DNA of 64,000 nt from positions 1,674,001 through 1,738,000 of the forward strand of contig CP115556.1 in NCBI GenBank assembly GCA_030168595.1, in the 5' to 3' direction. Source of the stretch: Methanomassiliicoccales archaeon LGM-DZ1. GTDB taxonomy: Archaea; Thermoplasmatota; Thermoplasmata; Methanomassiliicoccales; Methanomethylophilaceae. The notes under the pieces were generated by a model, which saw only the letters and a list, made by a program, of their open reading frames with translations, had not been told where the DNA came from and did no database searches. Positions 20,183-62,559 of the stretch are shown here, piece by piece. The position numbers were made by a program, and so were the translations under genes. Numbering within the stretch: the first letter of the stretch is position 1; each line of letters begins with the position of its first letter.

Positions 20183-21592
20183 ATGGCAGCACAGGAATAT
20201 TACACCAGAATGGGAGACGGCAAGAGAGTCACCATGACCAAAGAGCAGATCATGGCCGACATCCAGGCCGGTACCGCGGACGCCGCGGACATGGGGTCCA
20301 TCCCCGCACTGACCGATGATGACATGGCGAGGATCGCCGACATCATCATGGACAAGAACAGGGTCGTATCCGTCGAGCCCGGGAACGAGGTCGTCCTGAC
20401 CTACGATATCGGACAGCTTGACTTCACCGGCGACAACGGGAACTCCGGAAACGGAGTCGACATGGGCAGGCTCGAGGCCGCTCTCCTCCACGAGAGGGCG
20501 CTCGGCGCCGACACCTTCGAGCTCGCGCACTCTGACTACTCGATCAAACCCGTGAAGCCTGTCATCGCTATGGAGATGCAGACCATGGAGGAGATCCAGC
20601 AGGAGATCGTCGCGCCTTACTTCTACGGCGCGATGCCCAACATGGGACTCTACTACGCCCCTGACGGACCCTACGGGAACCCCGCCGACCTGATGAGGGA
20701 GTTCAAGATCGACGAGTCCATGCAGCAGTCCGAGCTCGCTTCCGAGCACATGGCCCGCGACATCGAGTACGTCGGGAACAAGATCCTCTCCGCCGGTGCC
20801 GACGGTTTCGACTTCGACACCATGGCATCCGCGGGAGATGCAGACTTCGTCGGCGGCCTCAAGGGCGTCGAGGCCCTCAGGAAGGCCAACCCCCTGGCAT
20901 ACATCAACACCGGAATGGCCGGAGAGTCCGTCATGGGAATCCACGGCGGCATCGAGTTCCACGGGAAGACCGTGGCCGGAATGTTCCCCCACCAGCAGGT
21001 CAAGATGTGCGAGGAGGCCGGAGCCAACGTCTTCGGTGCCGTCTGCAACACCAACACCAGCAAATCGCTCGCCTGGAACATGGCCCGCGCCGTCACCTTC
21101 GTGAAGGAGTGCGTCAAGCAGGCCAACATACCTGTGCACTGCGACCTCGGAATGGGCGTCGGAGGAATACCCATGTTCGAGACCCCGCCGATCGACGCTG
21201 TCTCCAGGGCCAGCAAGGCCATGGTCGAGATCGCGCACTGCGACGGTGTCTAGATCGGAGTCGGGGACCCTGTCGGAATGGACATGGCCCACATGATCGC
21301 CTCCGGAATGGGCGGAATCCGCACCGCGGGAGACCTCGTCGCCCGCATGGAGTACGCGAAGAACATGAAGGTCGGCGCTGCCAAGGAGTACGTCGCCAAG
21401 AAGCTCGGTGTCTCGACCCTCGAGATCGCCGACGAGCACGTCATGAGGGAGCTCAGGGAGGACCTCGGAATCGGAGTCGTCACCGGAGTGCCCGGCGCGC
21501 CCAGGGGAATCGCGGCCAAGATGAACATCGAGAAGCTGCTCGGAATCAAGATCAACAGCTGCGAGAAGTTCAGGCAGAGCCTCAAGAACTAA
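20183..21592 (+). CDS. mtbB: Dimethylamine methyltransferase MtbB (pyrrolysine at 357)
   Basis: Transfers a methyl group from dimethylamine to MtbC. The 469-residue product is full length only if the in-frame TAG at 21251-21253 is read as pyrrolysine (Pyl357). Both sides match MtbB: RMGDGKR at the start, [24 protein letters not shown] before the amber, IGVGDP directly after it, and INSCEKFR at the end. The flanking context DGV-Pyl-IGVGDP is that of Methanosarcina MtbB (Pyl356). The gene ends in TAA. The start ATG has GTGGTA upstream. Confidence 0.97.
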
Positions 21593-21629: not shown

Positions 21630-23144
21630 ATGGGAGTTATTGTACCCGAGTACCCCGCTCAGACTCAGCTGAACGGAATCAAATTCGAGCTTTTCACCGA
21701 CGACGAGATCCGCAGGATCGACATGGCCACCAGGGATGTCCTGGAGACCTACGGCGTCCAGGTGTCCGACGAGGAAGGCCGCCAGATCTTCAAGAAGGCC
21801 GGCTGCCCCGTCGACGAGGCGACCCACATGGTCAAGATCCCCGGCCACGTCCTCGACATGGCCCTCGCCACCGTCCCCAAGAAGTTCTACTGCTACGGCA
21901 GGGACGAGAGCAGGACCTTCTCCCAGGAGTGGAAAGGCAAGGTGCACTACACCTGCTTCGGAACCGGTATCCAGGTCTGCGACTACAAGGGACACGGCAA
22001 ATACGAGACCAGGGACTCCAACGAGGAGGACCTCGCCAACATCGCGAGGCTCTGCGACTGGTGCGACGGCCTCTCCTACTTCTCCCTGCCTGTTTCCGCA
22101 AGGAACTGGGCCGGAAAGGGTGCCGAGGATGTCCACGAGCTCCTGACCTCCCTGAAGAACACCACCATGCACTTCCACCACATCGACCCCGTCGCCGGCA
22201 ACGTCGAGTTCTACCGCGACATGGTCCTCGCCTACTACCACGGCGACGAGGCCCAGGCCCGCGCGAAGCCCATCATGTCCATGCTGGTCTGCCCGACCTC
22301 CCCGCTGGAGCTGTCCTACAACGCGTCCCAGTGCATCATCAAGGGAGCCAGGTACGGCATCCCGGTGAACGTCCTGTCCATGGCCATGGCCGGAGGATCC
22401 TCCTCCGTCTTCCTGGCCGGAACCCTCGTCACCCACAACGCTGAGGTCCTGTCCGGTATCGTGCTCTCCCAGCTCGCCTGCCCCGGCGCGAAGGTCTGGT
22501 ACGGATCCTCGACCACCACCTTCGACCTCAAGAGGGGAACCGCTCCTGTCGGATCCCCCGAGCTCGGCCTGATCTCCGCGTCCGTCGCGAAGCTCGGCCA
22601 GTACTACGGAATGCCCGTCTTCACCGCCGGTATGTAGACCGACGCCAAGGTGCCCGACGGACAGGCCGGACACGAGAAGACCATCACCTCCCTCGCAGCC
22701 GCCCTCGCCGGTGTCAACATGATCTACGGCAGCGGAATGCTGGAGCTCGGAATGACCTTCTCCCTCGAGCAGATGGTCATCGACAACGATATCATCCGCA
22801 TGGAGAGGAGGTTCATGGAGGGTGTCCCCGTCACCGACGAGACCCTCGCCGTCGACGCCATCAAGGAGATCGGAGTCGGGAACGACTTCATCGCCCACCC
22901 CTCCACCATGGAGAACATCGAGCTCGCTTCCGACCCCCTGGTCTTCAACAGGCTCATGCTCGGAGACTGGAGGAACGCTGGTTACAAGGACGCCGCCGAT
23001 GCCGCCCACGACATCGTCGTCGATGTCCTGAAGAACCACGAGGTCAAGCCCATCGAGGCCGATGTGCTCGCCAAGATGGAGGAGATCGCGAAGAAGGCCG
23101 ACCAGGCATACCTGAAGAGGGCTGCCCAGGAGGAGAGCCAGTAA
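21630..23144 (+). CDS. mttB: Trimethylamine methyltransferase MttB (pyrrolysine at 336)
   Basis: Transfers a methyl group from trimethylamine to MttC. The 504-residue product reads through the in-frame TAG at 22635-22637 (Pyl336), close to position 334 of Methanosarcina MttB. Typical blocks are [15 protein letters not shown] before the amber and [14 protein letters not shown] after it, and [15 protein letters not shown] further on. A good Shine-Dalgarno (AAGGAGGAAG) precedes ATG 21630. It is 37 bp from mtbB and 73 bp from mttC. Stop is TAA. Confidence 0.97.
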
Positions 23145-27629: not shown

Positions 27630-29015
27630 ATGGCAGCAACCAGAGCGCTTTCTGTCTGCGACACCTACGACAGGTTCAAGAAGGGTAAGAAGGTCGACGA
27701 GTCCGAGTGGGACTACAGCATCATCCCCACCAACGCGACCGAGCTGAAGAACAAGTACAAGCTCGACTTCGGCAACACCTTCATCCCCGAGGACAATGAG
27801 GTCAAGAACGCCCTCTTCCAGGCTGGACTTGAGATGCTCGTCAACACCGGGTTCTACCTCAAGGACATGGGAAAGGTCATGCATGTGACCGAGGAGGAGG
27901 TCTGGGAGGGGATCAAGAAGACCCCGACCAAGCTCATTCTCGGTGAGGGCAGGGACATCGCCCGCTTCTACCCGAGGCACGGCAACAGCCCCGTGAAGCC
28001 CATCATCCAGGGAGGACCTACCGGATCCCCCATCTCCGAGGACGTGTTCGTGCAGGTCATGCAGTCCTACGCCCAGGAAGGCGTCGTCGACGACCTCGTC
28101 GACGGTGTCATGACGACCCTCGAGGGGCACCCCGCCAAGTCCGGAACTCCCTACGAGATCCGCGCCACCATGGCGGAGCTCCGCGCCACCAGGGAAGCGA
28201 GGGAGAGGGCCGGCCGTCCCGGACTGGGTGTCTAGGGACCCGAGACTCCGCTGACCGAGGCCGCCAGGCTCGCAGCGGACATGGTCCACGCAGGACACCG
28301 CGTCACCGACGCGCACGAGTGCTCCCAGCTGAACGAGCTCAAGATGGACATGACCGGCCTGAACATGCTGGCCGGATGGACCGTCAACGGCGACACCATC
28401 ATGATCGAGCAGATGCCGATCTTCGGCGGATACTGCGGCGGCCTCGAGGAGACCGCGATCTGCGACGTCGCCACCACCCTCGCGTCCTTCGCCCTGTTCA
28501 ACGGCAACTTCCACCTCGACGGACCTATCCACATCAGGTGGGGAACCACCACCAACAGGCAGTCCCTGCAGGTCGCTGCGCACGCCGCCGCGGCCATCGA
28601 CAACAACACCGACCTGCTGCTGGCCAACCAGTACTACCCGATGGCGGGCCCCTGCACCGAGATGTGCCTCATCGAGACCGCCGTCCAGGCGATCAACGAT
28701 ACCGGCTCCGGAAGGGAGCTCCTCTCCGGATCCGCCGCCGCCAAGGGTGTCGTCCAGGACAAGACCACCGGAATGGAGGCCCGCGCCATGGGCGAGGCCG
28801 CCCTGACCGCCGCCGGAATGAAGGTGTCCGACCTCAACGAGATCATGAACACCCTCGTCTCCGAGTACGAGCAGCACTACAACGATGCTCCCGCCGGAAA
28901 GAGGTTCCAGGAGTGCTACGACGTCAAGACCGTCAAGCCCACCGAGGAGTACCTCCAGGTCTACGACCAGGCGATGCAGCACCTCCGCGACGCCGGACTC
29001 CCCATCAAGCACTGA
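27630..29015 (+). CDS. mtmB: Monomethylamine methyltransferase MtmB (pyrrolysine at 202)
   Basis: Transfers the methyl group of monomethylamine to MtmC. The in-frame TAG at 28233-28235 encodes Pyl202, exactly the position in Methanosarcina MtmB. The context GRPGLGV-Pyl-GPETPL is diagnostic, as are QGGPTGSPISEDVF before it and MPIFGGYCGGLEET, HLDGPIHIRWG and GPCTEMCLIE after it. Product 461 residues, stop TGA. A hairpin (29034-29053) follows. A decayed copy lies downstream. Confidence 0.98.
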
Positions 29016-29053: not shown

Positions 29054-29148
29054 CTATTTATTTCTCCCGCGGGCCGCGCCAGCGGCCCGTACCTTACCAT
29101 GCCTTATCCGTAGGCATCCTTTTCCAACAGAACAGAGTTGCATATACA

Positions 29149-29575
29149 ATGGCTGCATCGAGACCTCTCGACGTGTTCGAGGCCTTCACCCGCTTCTCAG
29201 AGGGGAAGAAGACCAGGGAGGACCAGTGGACTACGTCACCGTTCCTACGAATGCGCTCCGCATGAAAGAGAAGTCCCATGTTCGGAGGGTACTGCGGCGG
29301 GATAGAGGAGACCGCCATCTGCGATGTCGCCTCGACCCTCGCGTCGTTCACCATCCTGGGCACGGACATCCATCTCGACGGCCCCGTCCATATCAGATGG
29401 CGTCGCCGCGTCGAAAGGCGTGGTCAAGGACCGCGGGACGGGCATGGAGGCCCCTGATGGGCGAGTCGGCCATCGCCTCGGCAGGCATGGACATAGAGCG
29501 CGCCAACAGGGTGATCGACAACATTGTCTCCCTCTACGAGAACAGCTACGCGCATTCGCCGTCCGGGAAGCCCTG
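29149..29575 (+). pseudogene. Decayed second mtmB
   Basis: Three blocks of MtmB remain. From ATG 29149 the first 46 or so codons match mtmB (MAASRPLDVFEAFTRF against MAATRALSVCDTYDRF), with a one-base deletion near 29229. A jump of about 216 codons removes the amber region; FGGYCGGIEETAICDVA then follows to HIRW. A second gap of about 63 codons leads to ASKGVVKDRGTGMEA, and another frameshift to MGESAIASAGMD up to SPSGK. Differences from the intact gene are many, so this is an old paralogue, not a recent copy. Confidence 0.85.
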
Positions 29576-29576
29576 T

Positions 29577-29604
29577 GGGGGACGCGGGCTCGAACAGCGG
29601 GTCT
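29577..29604 (+). pseudogene. Partial pylT-like sequence
   Basis: GGGGGACG and CAGCGGGTCT occur here with exactly the spacing they have in pylT, 120 bp upstream of it. These correspond to the acceptor 5' strand and to the end of the D arm plus the 5' half of the anticodon arm. The D stem cannot form and the 3' half is not recognisable. It could be a remnant tRNA-Pyl. The overlapping frame also resembles the MtmB C-terminus weakly (RVYDPAL), so chance cannot be fully excluded. Confidence 0.5.
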
Positions 29605-29661
29605 ATGATCCCGCCCTGCCGGGACGCATGCCCGCATACCGATGGATGCCATCTGGGAAAT

Positions 29662-29696: not shown

Positions 29697-29767
29697 GGGG
29701 GACGATCCGGCGATCAGCGGGTCTCTAAAACCTAGCCAGCGGGGATCGACACCCCGGTCTCTCGCCA
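29697..29767 (+). tRNA. pylT: tRNA-Pyl (anticodon CUA)
   Basis: The amber suppressor tRNA for pyrrolysine. Acceptor GGGGGAC/GTCTCTC has two G-U pairs, and CCA is encoded. There is no base between acceptor and D stem. The D arm is GATC-CGGC-GATC with a 4-base loop. The anticodon loop is CTCTAAA. The anticodon stem pairs GC and GGGT with ACCT and GC, leaving one bulged A, the broken stem known from Methanomassiliicoccales. The variable loop is three bases, and the T arm is CGGGG-ATCGACA-CCCCG. All this fits the compact tRNA-Pyl used by PylSn-less PylS. Confidence 0.97.
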
Positions 29768-29797: not shown

Positions 29798-30625
29798 ATG
29801 GCGGAACATTTTACCGATGCGCAGATCCAGCGGCTGAGGGAGTACGGGAACGGCACTTACAAGGACATGGAGTTCGCGGACGTTTCCGCCAGGGAGAAAG
29901 CGTTCACCAAGCTCATGTCCGACGCCTCCAGGGACAACGAGTCCGCGCTGAAGGGCATGATCGCCCATCCCGCCAGGCAGGGCCTGAGCCAGCTCATGAA
30001 CGACATCGCCGACGCCCTCGTCGCCGACGGGTTCATCGAGGTCCGCACCCCTATCATCATCTCCAAGGACGCGCTCGCCAAGATGACGATCACCCCTGAC
30101 AAGCCCCTGTTCAAGCAGGTTTTCTGGATAGATGACAAGAGGGCCCTCAGGCCCATGCTCGCTCCCAGCCTGTACACCGTCATGAGGTCCCTCCGCGACC
30201 ATACGGACGGGCCTGTCAAGATCTTCGAGATGGGATCTTGCTTCAGGAAGGAGTCCCACAGCGGCATGCACCTGGAGGAGTTCACGATGCTGAACCTCGT
30301 CGACATGGGCCCGGCAGGCGACGCGACGGAGTCCCTCAAGAAGTACATAGCGATCGTCATGAAGGCCGCCGGCCTTCCCGACTACCAGCTCGTCCACGAG
30401 GAGTCCGACGTCTACAAGGAGACCATCGATGTCGAGATCGGCGGCCAGGAGGTCTGCTCGGCCGCCGTCGGGCCGCATTACCTCGATGCCGCCCACGATG
30501 TCCATGAGCCGTGGGCGGGTGCCGGCTTCGGCCTCGAGCGCCTGCTCACCATAAGGCAGGGGTACAGCACCGTCATGAAGGGCGGGGCCAGCACGACCTA
30601 CCTGAACGGCGCCAAGATGGACTGA
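29798..30625 (+). CDS. pylS: Pyrrolysyl-tRNA synthetase (no N-terminal domain)
   Basis: Class II synthetase that attaches pyrrolysine to tRNA-Pyl. The 275-residue protein has only the catalytic domain, as in Methanomassiliicoccales; no separate pylSn is seen. Motif 2 is FEMGSCFRKES; motif 3 is GAGFGLERLLTI. Amino-acid pocket residues of the class are present in APSLYTVM (Tyr126) and TMLNLVDM (Asn166), and the Trp in HEPWAGAGFG. It starts 30 bp after pylT. Confidence 0.98.
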   Translation: MAEHFTDAQIQRLREYGNGTYKDMEFADVSAREKAFTKLMSDASRDNESALKGMIAHPARQGLSQLMNDIADALVADGFIEVRTPIIISKDALAKMTITPDKPLFKQVFWIDDKRALRPMLAPSLYTVMRSLRDHTDGPVKIFEMGSCFRKESHSGMHLEEFTMLNLVDMGPAGDATESLKKYIAIVMKAAGLPDYQLVHEESDVYKETIDVEIGGQEVCSAAVGPHYLDAAHDVHEPWAGAGFGLERLLTIRQGYSTVMKGGASTTYLNGAKMD

Positions 30626-30711: not shown

Positions 30712-31872
30712 CTGAAACTAGGTATTATCGGAGGCGCGCTTCAGGGCATCGAGGCGGCCTATCTCGCGCAGAAGGCCGGATATGAGACTTTGGTCCTGGA
30801 CAGGCGGGAGGATGCTCCCGCCCGTTCCATCGCGGACGGCTCGGTCACGGTAGATGTGGCCAAGGACCCGGAGAAGGCCGCGAAGGCGCTCGGGGACTGC
30901 GATGCCGTCATACCGGCGCTCGAGGAGATGGACGCCCTCGAGAGCCTTGAGAAGATAAAGAAAGGATTCTCGGGCCCGTACCTTTTCGATATGGACGCCT
31001 ACCGGATCTCGTCCTCCAAGCTGAGGTCCAATGAGATCATGGGGAAGTTCGGGGTCCCCATGCCCAAACCGTGGCCGGAATGCGGCTACCCCGTGATCGT
31101 CAAGCCGTCGTCCCAGAGCGGGTCCGTCGGCGTCTCCGAGGTCGAGAACGACGAGCAGATGAAGGCGGCGCTGGAGAAGGTGTCCGCGCTGCACGACGAG
31201 CCGGTCATCCAGGAGTTCGTCCACGGGAAGAGCCTGTCCGTCGAGGCCATAGGGGACGGGGAGAAGGCCAGGGCCTACATCACCACCCAGGTGGTCCTCG
31301 ACAGCGGCTACGACTGCAAGCAGGTCATCTGCGAGCCGGGGATCCTCGGCCCGGAGGCCGACAAACGGTTCGGGGAATGCATCAGGATGACCGCCGAGGA
31401 CATGCATCTCTGCGGCCTGATGGACATGGAGGCCATCGGCGGCGATGCGGGGTTCAAGGTGCTCGAGATCGATGCGAGGATACCCAGCCAGACCCCGGCA
31501 TGCATACTGGCCGGGACCGGCATCAACCTCCTGAAGGAGCTCTACCTGGCCCTTTCCGGCAAGGGCTCCGACCCGGTGAGGAGACCCGGAGCATCCTCGT
31601 ACGAGCATTTCTACATCGACGGGGCGCGCATGTACACCACCGGGGAGAAGGCGTTCTCCCACGTGGACCATCCGCGCATCGAGAAGGGGCTGTTCGGCTC
31701 CGACGAGATGATCACCGATTACGCCCCCGGGAAGTCCCGCTGGCACGCAACCATGATCACGTCCGGGAAGGACAGGGAGGACGTCTTCTGGAAGAGGAAG
31801 GATGCCATCGCCCGCATCATGGACGAGTGCGGCATCGAGGAGTTCATCGACGGCTCCCCGGAGGTGGTCTGA
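30712..31872 (+). CDS. pylC: PylC, 3-methylornithine:lysine ligase
   Basis: ATP-grasp ligase that joins 3-methylornithine to lysine. Family features: KLGIIGGALQGIEAAYLA at the start, YPVIVKPSSQSGSVGV, MDMEAIGGD and VLEIDARIPSQTP. The family N-terminus begins right at KLGIIGG, yet the codon before it is CTG (30712-30714), not ATG. The only in-frame alternative is GTG 30634, which would add 26 unlike residues. CTG overlaps a TGA (CTGA) in another frame, as if coupled to a lost gene. pylB is missing upstream. It overlaps pylD by one base (TGATG). Confidence 0.93.
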   Translation: MKLGIIGGALQGIEAAYLAQKAGYETLVLDRREDAPARSIADGSVTVDVAKDPEKAAKALGDCDAVIPALEEMDALESLEKIKKGFSGPYLFDMDAYRISSSKLRSNEIMGKFGVPMPKPWPECGYPVIVKPSSQSGSVGVSEVENDEQMKAALEKVSALHDEPVIQEFVHGKSLSVEAIGDGEKARAYITTQVVLDSGYDCKQVICEPGILGPEADKRFGECIRMTAEDMHLCGLMDMEAIGGDAGFKVLEIDARIPSQTPACILAGTGINLLKELYLALSGKGSDPVRRPGASSYEHFYIDGARMYTTGEKAFSHVDHPRIEKGLFGSDEMITDYAPGKSRWHATMITSGKDREDVFWKRKDAIARIMDECGIEEFIDGSPEVV

Positions 31873-32702
31873 TGACCAGGCTGACCCCGAAGATGATCTC
31901 CGGCCTGTCCGGAGAGCTGAGCGACATCGACAAGATGCTGATCCGCGACACCGGGATGGACCTCAGGACGCTGGGGTTCAGGGCGGTCGGCGTGGACCCC
32001 TCGAAGGTCGACGTCTCCGAATACCGGGCGGCGGCGGTGCCCATCACCTCCGGGCTCGGCATCATCAGCAAGTTCTCCCGGAGCGTCGCCGACATCGTCT
32101 CCGCCATGGGCATCGAGTGCACCGTCACGGAGCACACCGACGTCTGGGGCTTCGGCGATGCCCTCGACCTCGGCGCGGACATCATCCTGATGGCCGATGA
32201 CGAGCAATACATGGCATACAGCGTCGCCGCCGGGAAGTACGCCAACAACTCGTACTGCACGGCGGCCGGGTACGTGGAGGCACTCTGCGGCGCCGCGGGA
32301 GGCCTGAAAGGAAAAGATGTGCTGGTCCGCGGGGCCGGAAGGGTCGGAGGCAACATGGTGGCCATGCTCAGGAAGCTGGGCGCCAGGGTCACCGTGGCCG
32401 ACATCCTCCCCGACCGGGCGTCCGCGGTGGCGTACGCCAATCCGGGCACCATAGTGGCCACGGACATCGACGCATCGACGAGGAAGGCCGACCTCATACT
32501 CAATGCGTCCCCCACGCCCATACCGGGGGACCAGATCAAGGAGGGTGCCATAGTCTCGACGCCGGGCATCCCCCACGTTTACGACGAGGAGACGCTCGCC
32601 AAAGCGGAGTTCATCCACGACCCGCTGGCGATCGGCACCGCGCCGATGGTGGCCCAGGCCATCTCTTTCTCGCTGGGCAAGGACTGTTTCCTGCAGGAGT
32701 GA
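31872..32702 (+). CDS. pylD: PylD, pyrrolysine-forming dehydrogenase
   Basis: NAD-dependent enzyme that oxidises the PylC product so that it cyclises to pyrrolysine. The 276-residue protein ends in a Rossmann domain (VLVRGAGRVGGNMVAMLRKLG). The N-terminal part holds DTGMDLRTLG and PITSGLGIISKFS, both typical of PylD. Its ATG overlaps the pylC stop. ramA follows after 6 bp. Confidence 0.96.
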   Translation: MTRLTPKMISGLSGELSDIDKMLIRDTGMDLRTLGFRAVGVDPSKVDVSEYRAAAVPITSGLGIISKFSRSVADIVSAMGIECTVTEHTDVWGFGDALDLGADIILMADDEQYMAYSVAAGKYANNSYCTAAGYVEALCGAAGGLKGKDVLVRGAGRVGGNMVAMLRKLGARVTVADILPDRASAVAYANPGTIVATDIDASTRKADLILNASPTPIPGDQIKEGAIVSTPGIPHVYDEETLAKAEFIHDPLAIGTAPMVAQAISFSLGKDCFLQE

Positions 32703-54433: not shown

Positions 54434-55462
54434 TCACCTTGGTGTAAATGCCGGGGAGCGGCAGTCCAGCGCGCTCCCCGCGTCCTTGCCCGGGCACGGG
54501 AGCACGCATACGCGCCTCCCCTCTATTGTTCCGTCCAATGCACGCGCGCGATTTAATAACTTCGAACCTGCAGAGGCCATCATGCCCCAGGCCGCTCCCG
54601 GGTCCCCTCCCTGGGACCTGAGGATGTCTGCGGCGAGGGAGGCCTCCGGGCGGAGGTCCGGGGAGCAGAGCATCGCATTGTCGGTGCCGAGCGCCACCGT
54701 GCATCCGGCGGACAGCATCGATGCGAGCGGCGGAACCTTCCCGAAGAAGCGGTTGGAGCGCGGGCACGAGACTATCGGCACATCGGCGTCCGCGAACATC
54801 CTGAGGTCCCCTTCCGCCGCCTCGCACATGTGGACCGCGAACGCGGGTTCCAGGGAGAGCGCTTCTTCGGCATCCTCGCGGATCCTCTCGCTGAGGTGCA
54901 GCGCGAAGGGCTTTCCGGCCCTGCGGCAGGCGTCGGCTATCTTCTCGGCGTACCTGTTCCCGATGTCCGTGAGCGAGGATATGGCTATGCCGTCCGCCGA
55001 CCCGAGGATGGCATCTATCTCGGATTGGTCGAACTCCCCGGAGACGGGCCTCCCGAGCACGACGGCGTGCGGGCAGGCGCTCTTGGCCATGAGAACTCCT
55101 TCCAGGCCCCCCTCGCGGAAGTCGATGAATCTCCCGATCCCGTTGGCGGCGGCCTCCGAATCGAAGCGCCCCATGCTGCCGAGCAGTTCGCTGCGCGGGG
55201 CCTCCCTCAAGTACCTGTGCTTGAGGCCGTCCGGAGGAGCGACGAGCTCTTCCAGGGTCATGCCCGGGCGGACCAGGGGCGCGGCCCCGGCATCGGCGCA
55301 GTGCGTATGGCCGTCGGTCATCAGCGGGACGATGATCCCGGACGCGTCCGGCTCTGCGGGGGGCTTCCCTTCGCCGGCCTCCGCGGCGATCCCGTCCTCG
55401 GCGAGGACATAGCCTTCGCGCAGGGTCCCGCCGTCGAGGAACTATCCTGACAGGCAAAGCAT
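54434..55462 (-). CDS. Amidohydrolase with in-frame amber codon at position 7 (pyrrolysine candidate)
   Basis: A metal-dependent amidohydrolase of the deaminase-like group. Catalytic features: DGHTHCAD (HxH), LHLSER, VHMCEAAE, CPRSNRFFG and GTDNAMLCSPD. Gene-like sequence continues upstream of the first internal ATG (55321): 40 in-frame codons FLDGGTLREGYVLAEDG to IIVPL are the usual N-terminal sandwich of the family, with no ATG, GTG or TTG. Directly before them is TAG (55442-55444), then in frame ATG 55460-55462 encoding MLCLSG. A TATA box (55484-55491) is centred 26 bp from this ATG, exactly as at the neighbouring reductase. The 342-residue product thus needs UAG to be read, as pyrrolysine. 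A CTG start six codons after TAG is the alternative. Confidence 0.82.
55442..55444 (-). other. In-frame amber codon of the amidohydrolase
   Basis: TAG as codon 7 between MLCLSG and FLDGGT. It lies in the beta-sandwich segment of the protein, away from the metal site, so a bulky residue here need not affect catalysis. Confidence 0.75.
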
Positions 55463-55483
55463 GCCCCTCCCACGGTCCCGCGG

Positions 55484-55491
55484 ATATAAAA
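55484..55491 (-). promoter_or_regulatory. TATA box of the amidohydrolase gene
   Basis: TTTTATAT on the minus strand, centred about 26 bp from ATG 55462. The spacing predicts transcription starting at the ATG itself (leaderless). Confidence 0.65.
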
Positions 55492-55523: not shown

Positions 55524-56459
55524 TCAGGCCCAATAGGGCTTCTTGACGAACTTGTAGGCCATCAGGCAGGCGGTGGCGGCCTCGCCGCAGCCCGTGATGA
55601 TCTGCTTGTATTTCCCCGGGTAATCCACCACATCCCCGCAGGCGAATATGCCGTTGCGGTTGGTGCTCATGTCGACGCCGACCTTGATGAGGCCGTTCTC
55701 GGTGAGGTCGAGGCCCCATCTCTTGAGGATACCCAGATCGGCGGTGATCCCGATGTTGATGACGGCGAGGTCGGCGGGGATGGTCATCTCCTTCCCGTCC
55801 TGCTCGAGCGTGATGCTCTCGAGCCGGTCCTTGCCGTTGAATGATTTGACGGTGGCGTTCATGATCCTGCGGACGTTGCTCTCGTTCAGGTTCTTCACGT
55901 TCATCTCGTCCGCCCTGAACTCGGGCCGGCGGTGCACGATCGTGGTGTCGGTGACAGAATCGGCGATCAACGCCATTTCAATGGCGCTGTTGCCGCCGCC
56001 GAACATCACTACTCTCTTGCCGACCAGGTCCTCCTTCTGCGGGAGGATGTAGTCGATGCCTTTCCCGGTGAGCTCGTCCTCTCCGGGGGAACCCATCTTC
56101 CTCGGGATGAAATCCCCCATCCCGATGGCTATGATGACGCTCATCGTCTCGTACTCGCCTTTGGCGGTCTTGACGATGATCTTCTGGTCGCCGTCGATGA
56201 TGTCCTCGACCTTCTCGTTCTCCCTGATGTCGCATTCCATGCTCTCCGCCTGGGCGTAGAGCTTGTCCGAGAGCTTCCTGGCCTGAACCGTCTCGAATCC
56301 GGGGTAATTGTGTATTCCCTTCTCGGGATAGAGGGCGACGAGCTGTCCGCCTACTTTCCCGGATTCCAGAATGAGCGTGCTCATCATTTTGGATCTGGCG
56401 TAGATCCCTGCTGTGAGGCCAGCGGGGCCCGCGCCGACGATTACGACATCATAGACCAT
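55524..56459 (-). CDS. TrxB-like flavoprotein lacking the redox CxxC
   Basis: An FAD-dependent pyridine nucleotide reductase of 311 residues. FAD site VVIVGAGPAGLTAGIYAR, NAD(P) site VVMFGGGNSAIEMALIA, C-terminal FAD motif GIFACGDVVD. Thioredoxin reductases have a CxxC just before the second domain; none is seen, which places it with TrxR-like ferredoxin/flavodoxin:NADP reductases. The MVYDVVIVG start is supported by a TATA box (56481-56488) about 26 bp upstream. It is preferred over ATG 56471. Confidence 0.9.
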   Translation of the reverse strand: MVYDVVIVGAGPAGLTAGIYARSKMMSTLILESGKVGGQLVALYPEKGIHNYPGFETVQARKLSDKLYAQAESMECDIRENEKVEDIIDGDQKIIVKTAKGEYETMSVIIAIGMGDFIPRKMGSPGEDELTGKGIDYILPQKEDLVGKRVVMFGGGNSAIEMALIADSVTDTTIVHRRPEFRADEMNVKNLNESNVRRIMNATVKSFNGKDRLESITLEQDGKEMTIPADLAVINIGITADLGILKRWGLDLTENGLIKVGVDMSTNRNGIFACGDVVDYPGKYKQIITGCGEAATACLMAYKFVKKPYWA

Positions 56460-56480
56460 TGACGGCTCCATCGAGTCAGG

Positions 56481-62399: not shown

Positions 62400-62559
62400 T
62401 TCGATTACCTTGCCATCGGTATCCCTCTAATATTTTAAAATTAGTGGCATCCTGCGCAGGGCCCGGCCTGCACGGCGCATCCGGTGCAATCATTATAAGG
62501 CAGATGCCCGTTAGAAAGCGCATAGGGACGTTCAGGCGTCCCGGACGTGAAGCAGGCAC

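Follow-up and report, generated by a model that had tools for sequence, protein, structure and literature searches.

We find that a conserved amidohydrolase gene of Methanomassiliicoccales archaeon LGM-DZ1, a rumen-type methane-producing archaeon, carries an in-frame TAG as its seventh codon. Very probably, a nearly neutral change from TGG to TAG gave an intact gene this codon in one strain, and the codon is decoded as pyrrolysine (Pyl) to give a full-length enzyme. The gene lies in the window, the 64,000-nucleotide stretch of contig CP115556.1 that was analysed (Table 1). Read on the minus strand, it begins ATG CTT TGC CTG TCA GGA TAG TTC CTC GAC and runs to a stop codon at 54436-54434; translation with TAG as O gives MLCLSG-O-FLDGGTLREGYVLAEDG.... 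A first-pass annotation, made from the sequence, had proposed that the TAG is read as pyrrolysine. That proposal is now supported by homologues, by the pyl genes, which form a complete set, by TAG behaviour across the genome, and by Candidatus Methanomethylophilus sp. 1R26, a sister strain with TGG at this codon.

Table 1 Features of the window that bear on decoding of the amidohydrolase TAG
Feature	Position	Strand	Basis
mtbB (dimethylamine methyltransferase) in-frame TAG, control	21251..21253	plus	TAG in both strains
mttB (trimethylamine methyltransferase) in-frame TAG, control	22635..22637	plus	TAG in both strains
mtmB (monomethylamine methyltransferase) in-frame TAG, control	28233..28235	plus	TAG in both strains
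pylT, tRNA-Pyl, anticodon CTA	29697..29767	plus	Read directly from the sequence
pylS, pyrrolysyl-tRNA synthetase, 275 aa, without N-terminal domain	29798..30625	plus	TIGR02367, E 5.8e-80, over cut-off
pylC, 3-methylornithine--L-lysine ligase	30712..31872	plus	TIGR03909, E 6e-99, over cut-off
pylD	31872..32702	plus	TIGR03911, E 1.4e-55, over cut-off
Amidohydrolase ORF, cytosine-deaminase/chlorohydrolase-like, 342 residues with TAG as a residue	54434..55462	minus	PRK07213-related, AF2, Foldseek
In-frame TAG, codon 7	55444-55442	minus	Sequence and homologue alignment; TGG (Trp) in 1R26
ATG start codon	55462-55460	minus	Same position in homologues of the genus
TATA-box-like element TTTTATATCC	55491-55482	minus	19 nt 5' of the amidohydrolase ATG
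Thioredoxin-reductase-like pyridine nucleotide-disulphide oxidoreductase, adjacent	55524..56459	minus	Sequence and profile matches; same order in G080

Both fold and metal-site residues place the protein in the amidohydrolase superfamily, with TM0936 and other amidohydrolases as structural matches. The NCBIfam profile PRK07213 aligns from residue 2 and continues across the TAG (protein 2-273 to profile 3-303, E 1.7e-49), and its score of 168.7 bits against a curated cut-off of 294 for this equivalog (NF005552) indicates a related protein below membership; Amidohydro_1 falls slightly under its gathering score (22.9 versus 25 bits). The AF2 model has a pLDDT of 92.5, and its best Foldseek match among solved structures is the TM0936 amidohydrolase of Thermotoga maritima (1p1m; E 9.4e-19). 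The metal-site residues H52, H54, H189, H211 and D261, which supply the HxH motif and the later H and D, are invariant among 29 homologues. The gene has one copy in the source genome, and among the order's 74 high-quality genomes 73 contain it. Its conservation as a single-copy gene, the PRK07213 alignment on both sides of the TAG and the genome-wide TAG excess described below together indicate that an ORF running across this codon is more than chance. Sixty-one bases separate the stop codon of the adjacent reductase from the amidohydrolase ATG, and the amidohydrolase has a TATA-like box of its own. G080, a relative from another genus, keeps this order: the reductase and amidohydrolase genes come first, then those for a universal stress protein and a CBS protein, both of which were named by eye.

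On sequence grounds, translation starts at the upstream ATG, as the first-pass annotation had argued: an ATG at this position also opens the homologues of the genus, several of which show the pattern M-x-x-L-x-G, PRK07213 aligns almost from this residue, and the TATA-like box fits. Elements of this kind often lie 20-30 nt 5' of the homologues' ATG. The decamer in front of the amidohydrolase recurs identically at 56488-56479, 19 nt before the reductase ATG at 56459, which bears out an earlier claim of a common box at equal spacing, given that we take the second ATG (56459, MVYDVVIVGAG) as the reductase start; the mechanical ORF starts at 56471. Also correct were the placement of the TAG below an in-frame ATG and the count of codons between it and the next possible start, the ATG at codon 48: there are exactly 40 sense codons, with zero ATG, GTG or TTG among them. 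In the AF2 model, residue 7 falls inside strand 2-10, with which the N-terminal beta-sandwich begins. A protein started at Met48 would lack the entire sandwich, since the model has its first four strands before that residue; homologues encode this region, which had been described as conserved and lying above the internal ATG.

The sister strain provides the closest comparison at the site. Strain 1R26 and the window strain are the same species, aligning over 559 kb at 97.3% identity, and the 1R26 gene has TGG (Trp) at codon 7, reading MLCLSG-Trp-FLDGG (protein MLCLSGWFLDGGTLREG...); the six residues before this codon are identical in the two strains, as are nearly all of those after it. Among more distant homologues, position 7 is occupied by K, L, R, F, S, T, Y, M or I; it is variable even though it directly follows a conserved glycine. 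The first-pass annotation had suggested an alignment to see whether a sense codon occupies the site and whether MLCLSG is conserved; homologues do have sense codons there, and the six residues are kept in 1R26 and matched in pattern by several homologues of the genus. Since homologues tolerate many residues at position 7, a change to TAG would be nearly neutral, and its direction, with two strains of the species compared, is a matter of parsimony only. The strains differ in this gene at 8 synonymous and 3 non-synonymous sites, including TAG/TGG, where ~75% non-synonymous changes would be expected (p = 0.001), so the gene has been under constraint.

We see TAG at codon 7 in the window strain only, rather than conserved across species or strains. 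The same gene in G080 has a different in-frame TAG, near residue 98 (minus strand, about 1565 in G080 stretch L059), which shows that such codons arise independently in this gene. Within the 559-kb alignment there are three further TAG/sense differences in coding context and zero involving TGA or TAA. The TAG at genome position about 78191 is, like that of the amidohydrolase, TGG in 1R26. We considered the fact that all four polymorphic nonsense codons are TAG as a signal of its own and dropped it, as codon-usage opportunity alone favours TAG at ~64% (p about 0.17). The TAGs of the three methyltransferase genes are fixed in both strains, whereas that of the amidohydrolase is polymorphic, as expected for functional versus neutral residues.

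The claim that the genome encodes pyrrolysine holds, both from its gene content and from TAG behaviour genome-wide. Besides the genes in the window, pylB, which scores over its curated cut-off, lies outside it at about 663 kb, compared with about 1704 kb for pylS; pylB is likewise separated in Ca. Methanomethylophilus alvus (PMC3941956). The full set for Pyl decoding, pylT with pylS and pylBCD, is thus present. The tRNA-Pyl gene in the window, pylT, was recognized only by reading the sequence directly; it is too unusual for ARAGORN and Rfam, and both missed it. Between mtmB and the tRNA-Pyl, at 29100-29640, mtmB-like fragments with frame breaks are visible by eye and are probably a decayed methyltransferase copy. 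The homology of pylC begins at a CTG codon (30712) in both strains, and the most upstream common in-frame start, a GTG at 30511, falls within pylS, pointing to a start that is non-standard. Moreover, the draft assembly of 1R26 has an in-frame TAG in pylC where the window strain has GAG (31033-31035; about 11315 in 1R26 stretch L060). If real, this codon would place in PylC the very amino acid whose synthesis PylC serves. It is the more striking by-product of our analysis, raising a directly testable question of self-dependence, in which pyrrolysine would be needed for pyrrolysine.

A hexamer-based gene model, run with a crude caller that handles the three stops alike over 1.2 Mb of the genome taken in stretches, gave 1079 genes, terminated by TGA (959), TAA (95) or TAG (25). 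Coding-like sequence continues in frame directly after 12 of the 25 TAGs, as opposed to 34 of 959 TGAs and 1 of 95 TAAs (35/1054 for both; Fisher p = 4e-11). Coding signal that starts right after the stop, defined by the lack of a start codon for at least 15 codons, follows 8 of 153 TAGs and 9 of 898 TAA and TGA codons (p = 0.001). Clear examples of in-frame TAGs occur in genes for PHP-domain-like, nucleotide-sugar epimerase-like and glycosyltransferase-like proteins (named by eye). Long ORFs in which coding sequence flanks an in-frame TAG lie at genome positions of about 437254, 561286, 1047770, 156717, 453528 and 78191. In minus-strand genes at about 48779, 251591 and 487013, a TAG marks the beginning of the coding signal and an in-frame codon that could serve as start lies just 1 to 7 codons before it, so amber codons near the N terminus may be a recurrent feature of this genome. 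The amidohydrolase is one of perhaps 20-30 genes with coding sequence across a TAG. The TAG upstream of the minus-strand ORF at 62429 probably lies outside the gene, as a good ATG follows 10 codons further on.

Could the codon simply terminate translation? The TAG would then be true nonsense, and the gene either a very young pseudogene in the window strain or one expressed at a low level through inefficient read-through. We regard this as improbable. One strain-specific substitution separates the strains at the site, a very recent loss of function by single mutation would have left no further decay yet, and competition by release factor at UAG is part of the accepted model of Pyl insertion (PMC9499178), so some termination is expected. 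Nevertheless, the pyl system is complete, TAG is nearly absent as a terminator, this widely conserved gene is otherwise intact and constrained, and further strain-specific TAGs occur in intact ORFs.

The TAG might instead reflect an error of sequencing or assembly where the genome really has TGG, as the TGG of 1R26 could suggest, but this is very unlikely: the difference is a substitution and not an indel, and the source genome has many more in-frame TAGs. G-to-A differences are also not raised at GGATGG (1.35%, compared with 1.18% for all G), making a motif-tied artefact unlikely. Equally, the mechanical ORF 54434-55321 would allow translation from Met48 (55321), with the region above untranslated and the catalytic HxH retained. 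We reject this reading, which has scarcely any probability, on the PRK07213 alignment, the starts of the homologues and the AF2 sandwich; the N-terminal part is encoded from the upstream ATG in both the homologues and 1R26, four AF2 strands precede residue 48, and the promoter-like box suits the upstream ATG.

Pyrrolysine is most likely, as predicted from the sequence, the residue at position 7. We propose that a working, conserved amidohydrolase gene acquired the TAG there, with a transition from TGG to TAG within the species as the simplest route. Ribosomes would insert pyrrolysine at codon 7 because the tRNA-Pyl is charged by PylS and TAG is hardly used as a terminator, with UAG being decoded in ordinary competition with release factor and without a special RNA signal. 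We found no PYLIS-like structure in the 123 nt from the ATG, which fold like shuffled sequences (z = -0.04), and rejected an RNA recoding element at this TAG on that basis; such a structure after UAG has been reported as dispensable for Pyl insertion (PMC9499178). The product would be a full-length enzyme with pyrrolysine at a tolerant, variable and non-catalytic site. Its synthesis would, as a matter of logic, depend on charged tRNA-Pyl, yet there is no sign that the amber codon serves in regulation. For example, it is most doubtful that an amber so near the start gates synthesis by pyrrolysine (methylamine) status in the window strain, with no such gate in its sister.

More broadly, a Trp/Pyl polymorphism within a species, in a core enzyme, is a natural experiment on the way in which a stop codon close to full reassignment enters the proteome by drift. 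Automatic annotation would truncate or miss genes with in-frame TAGs. The implication in the first-pass annotation that Pyl proteins unlinked to methylamine use are rare does not stand, as relatives have many (PMC4153887, PMC5011839) and they are common in the source genome. In M. alvus, 16 proteins other than methyltransferases are predicted to contain Pyl and TAG makes up 1.6% of terminators, and the authors of that study reason that a mutation to an in-frame amber would be stable in this archaeon (Borrel et al. 2014, PMC4153887); low use of TAG as a stop is common to M. alvus and the source genome. In ISO4-H5, 46 genes have an in-frame amber, including those for adenylate kinase and phosphoglucose/phosphomannose isomerase (PMC5011839). 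These proteins come from the same archaeal family and, as here, include core enzymes encoded by intact ORFs with an in-frame TAG and homologues with a sense codon. The M. alvus table of Pyl proteins (PMC4153887) includes no amidohydrolase, and the gene described here differs from the M. alvus and ISO4-H5 cases in that its TAG is the seventh codon and varies between strains of one species. Pyl proteins other than methyltransferases are thus already known; the Trp/Pyl polymorphism between strains and the position near the N terminus are what this case adds.

Comparison with individual proteins sharpens this picture. TM0936, like the other amidohydrolases of the cytosine deaminase/chlorohydrolase type, shares the fold of the enzyme described here (TM-score 0.79 by query length), but the two are 19% identical and the TM0936 group has no Pyl. 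Heinemann et al. (2009, cited in PMC11467909) reportedly tested by experiment a pyrrolysine in the tRNA-His guanylyltransferase of Methanosarcina acetivorans and saw it as neutral evolution. That protein is likewise unrelated to methylamines, and its neutral reading is the one we propose for the amidohydrolase; by contrast, it is a different enzyme from a different order, known from experiment rather than from sequence alone. Finally, in the cell that has the amidohydrolase, TAG is also read as pyrrolysine in MtmB, MtbB and MttB, all three encoded in the window. In the methyltransferases, however, pyrrolysine is catalytic and the TAG conserved, whereas the amidohydrolase TAG occupies a variable, non-catalytic position.
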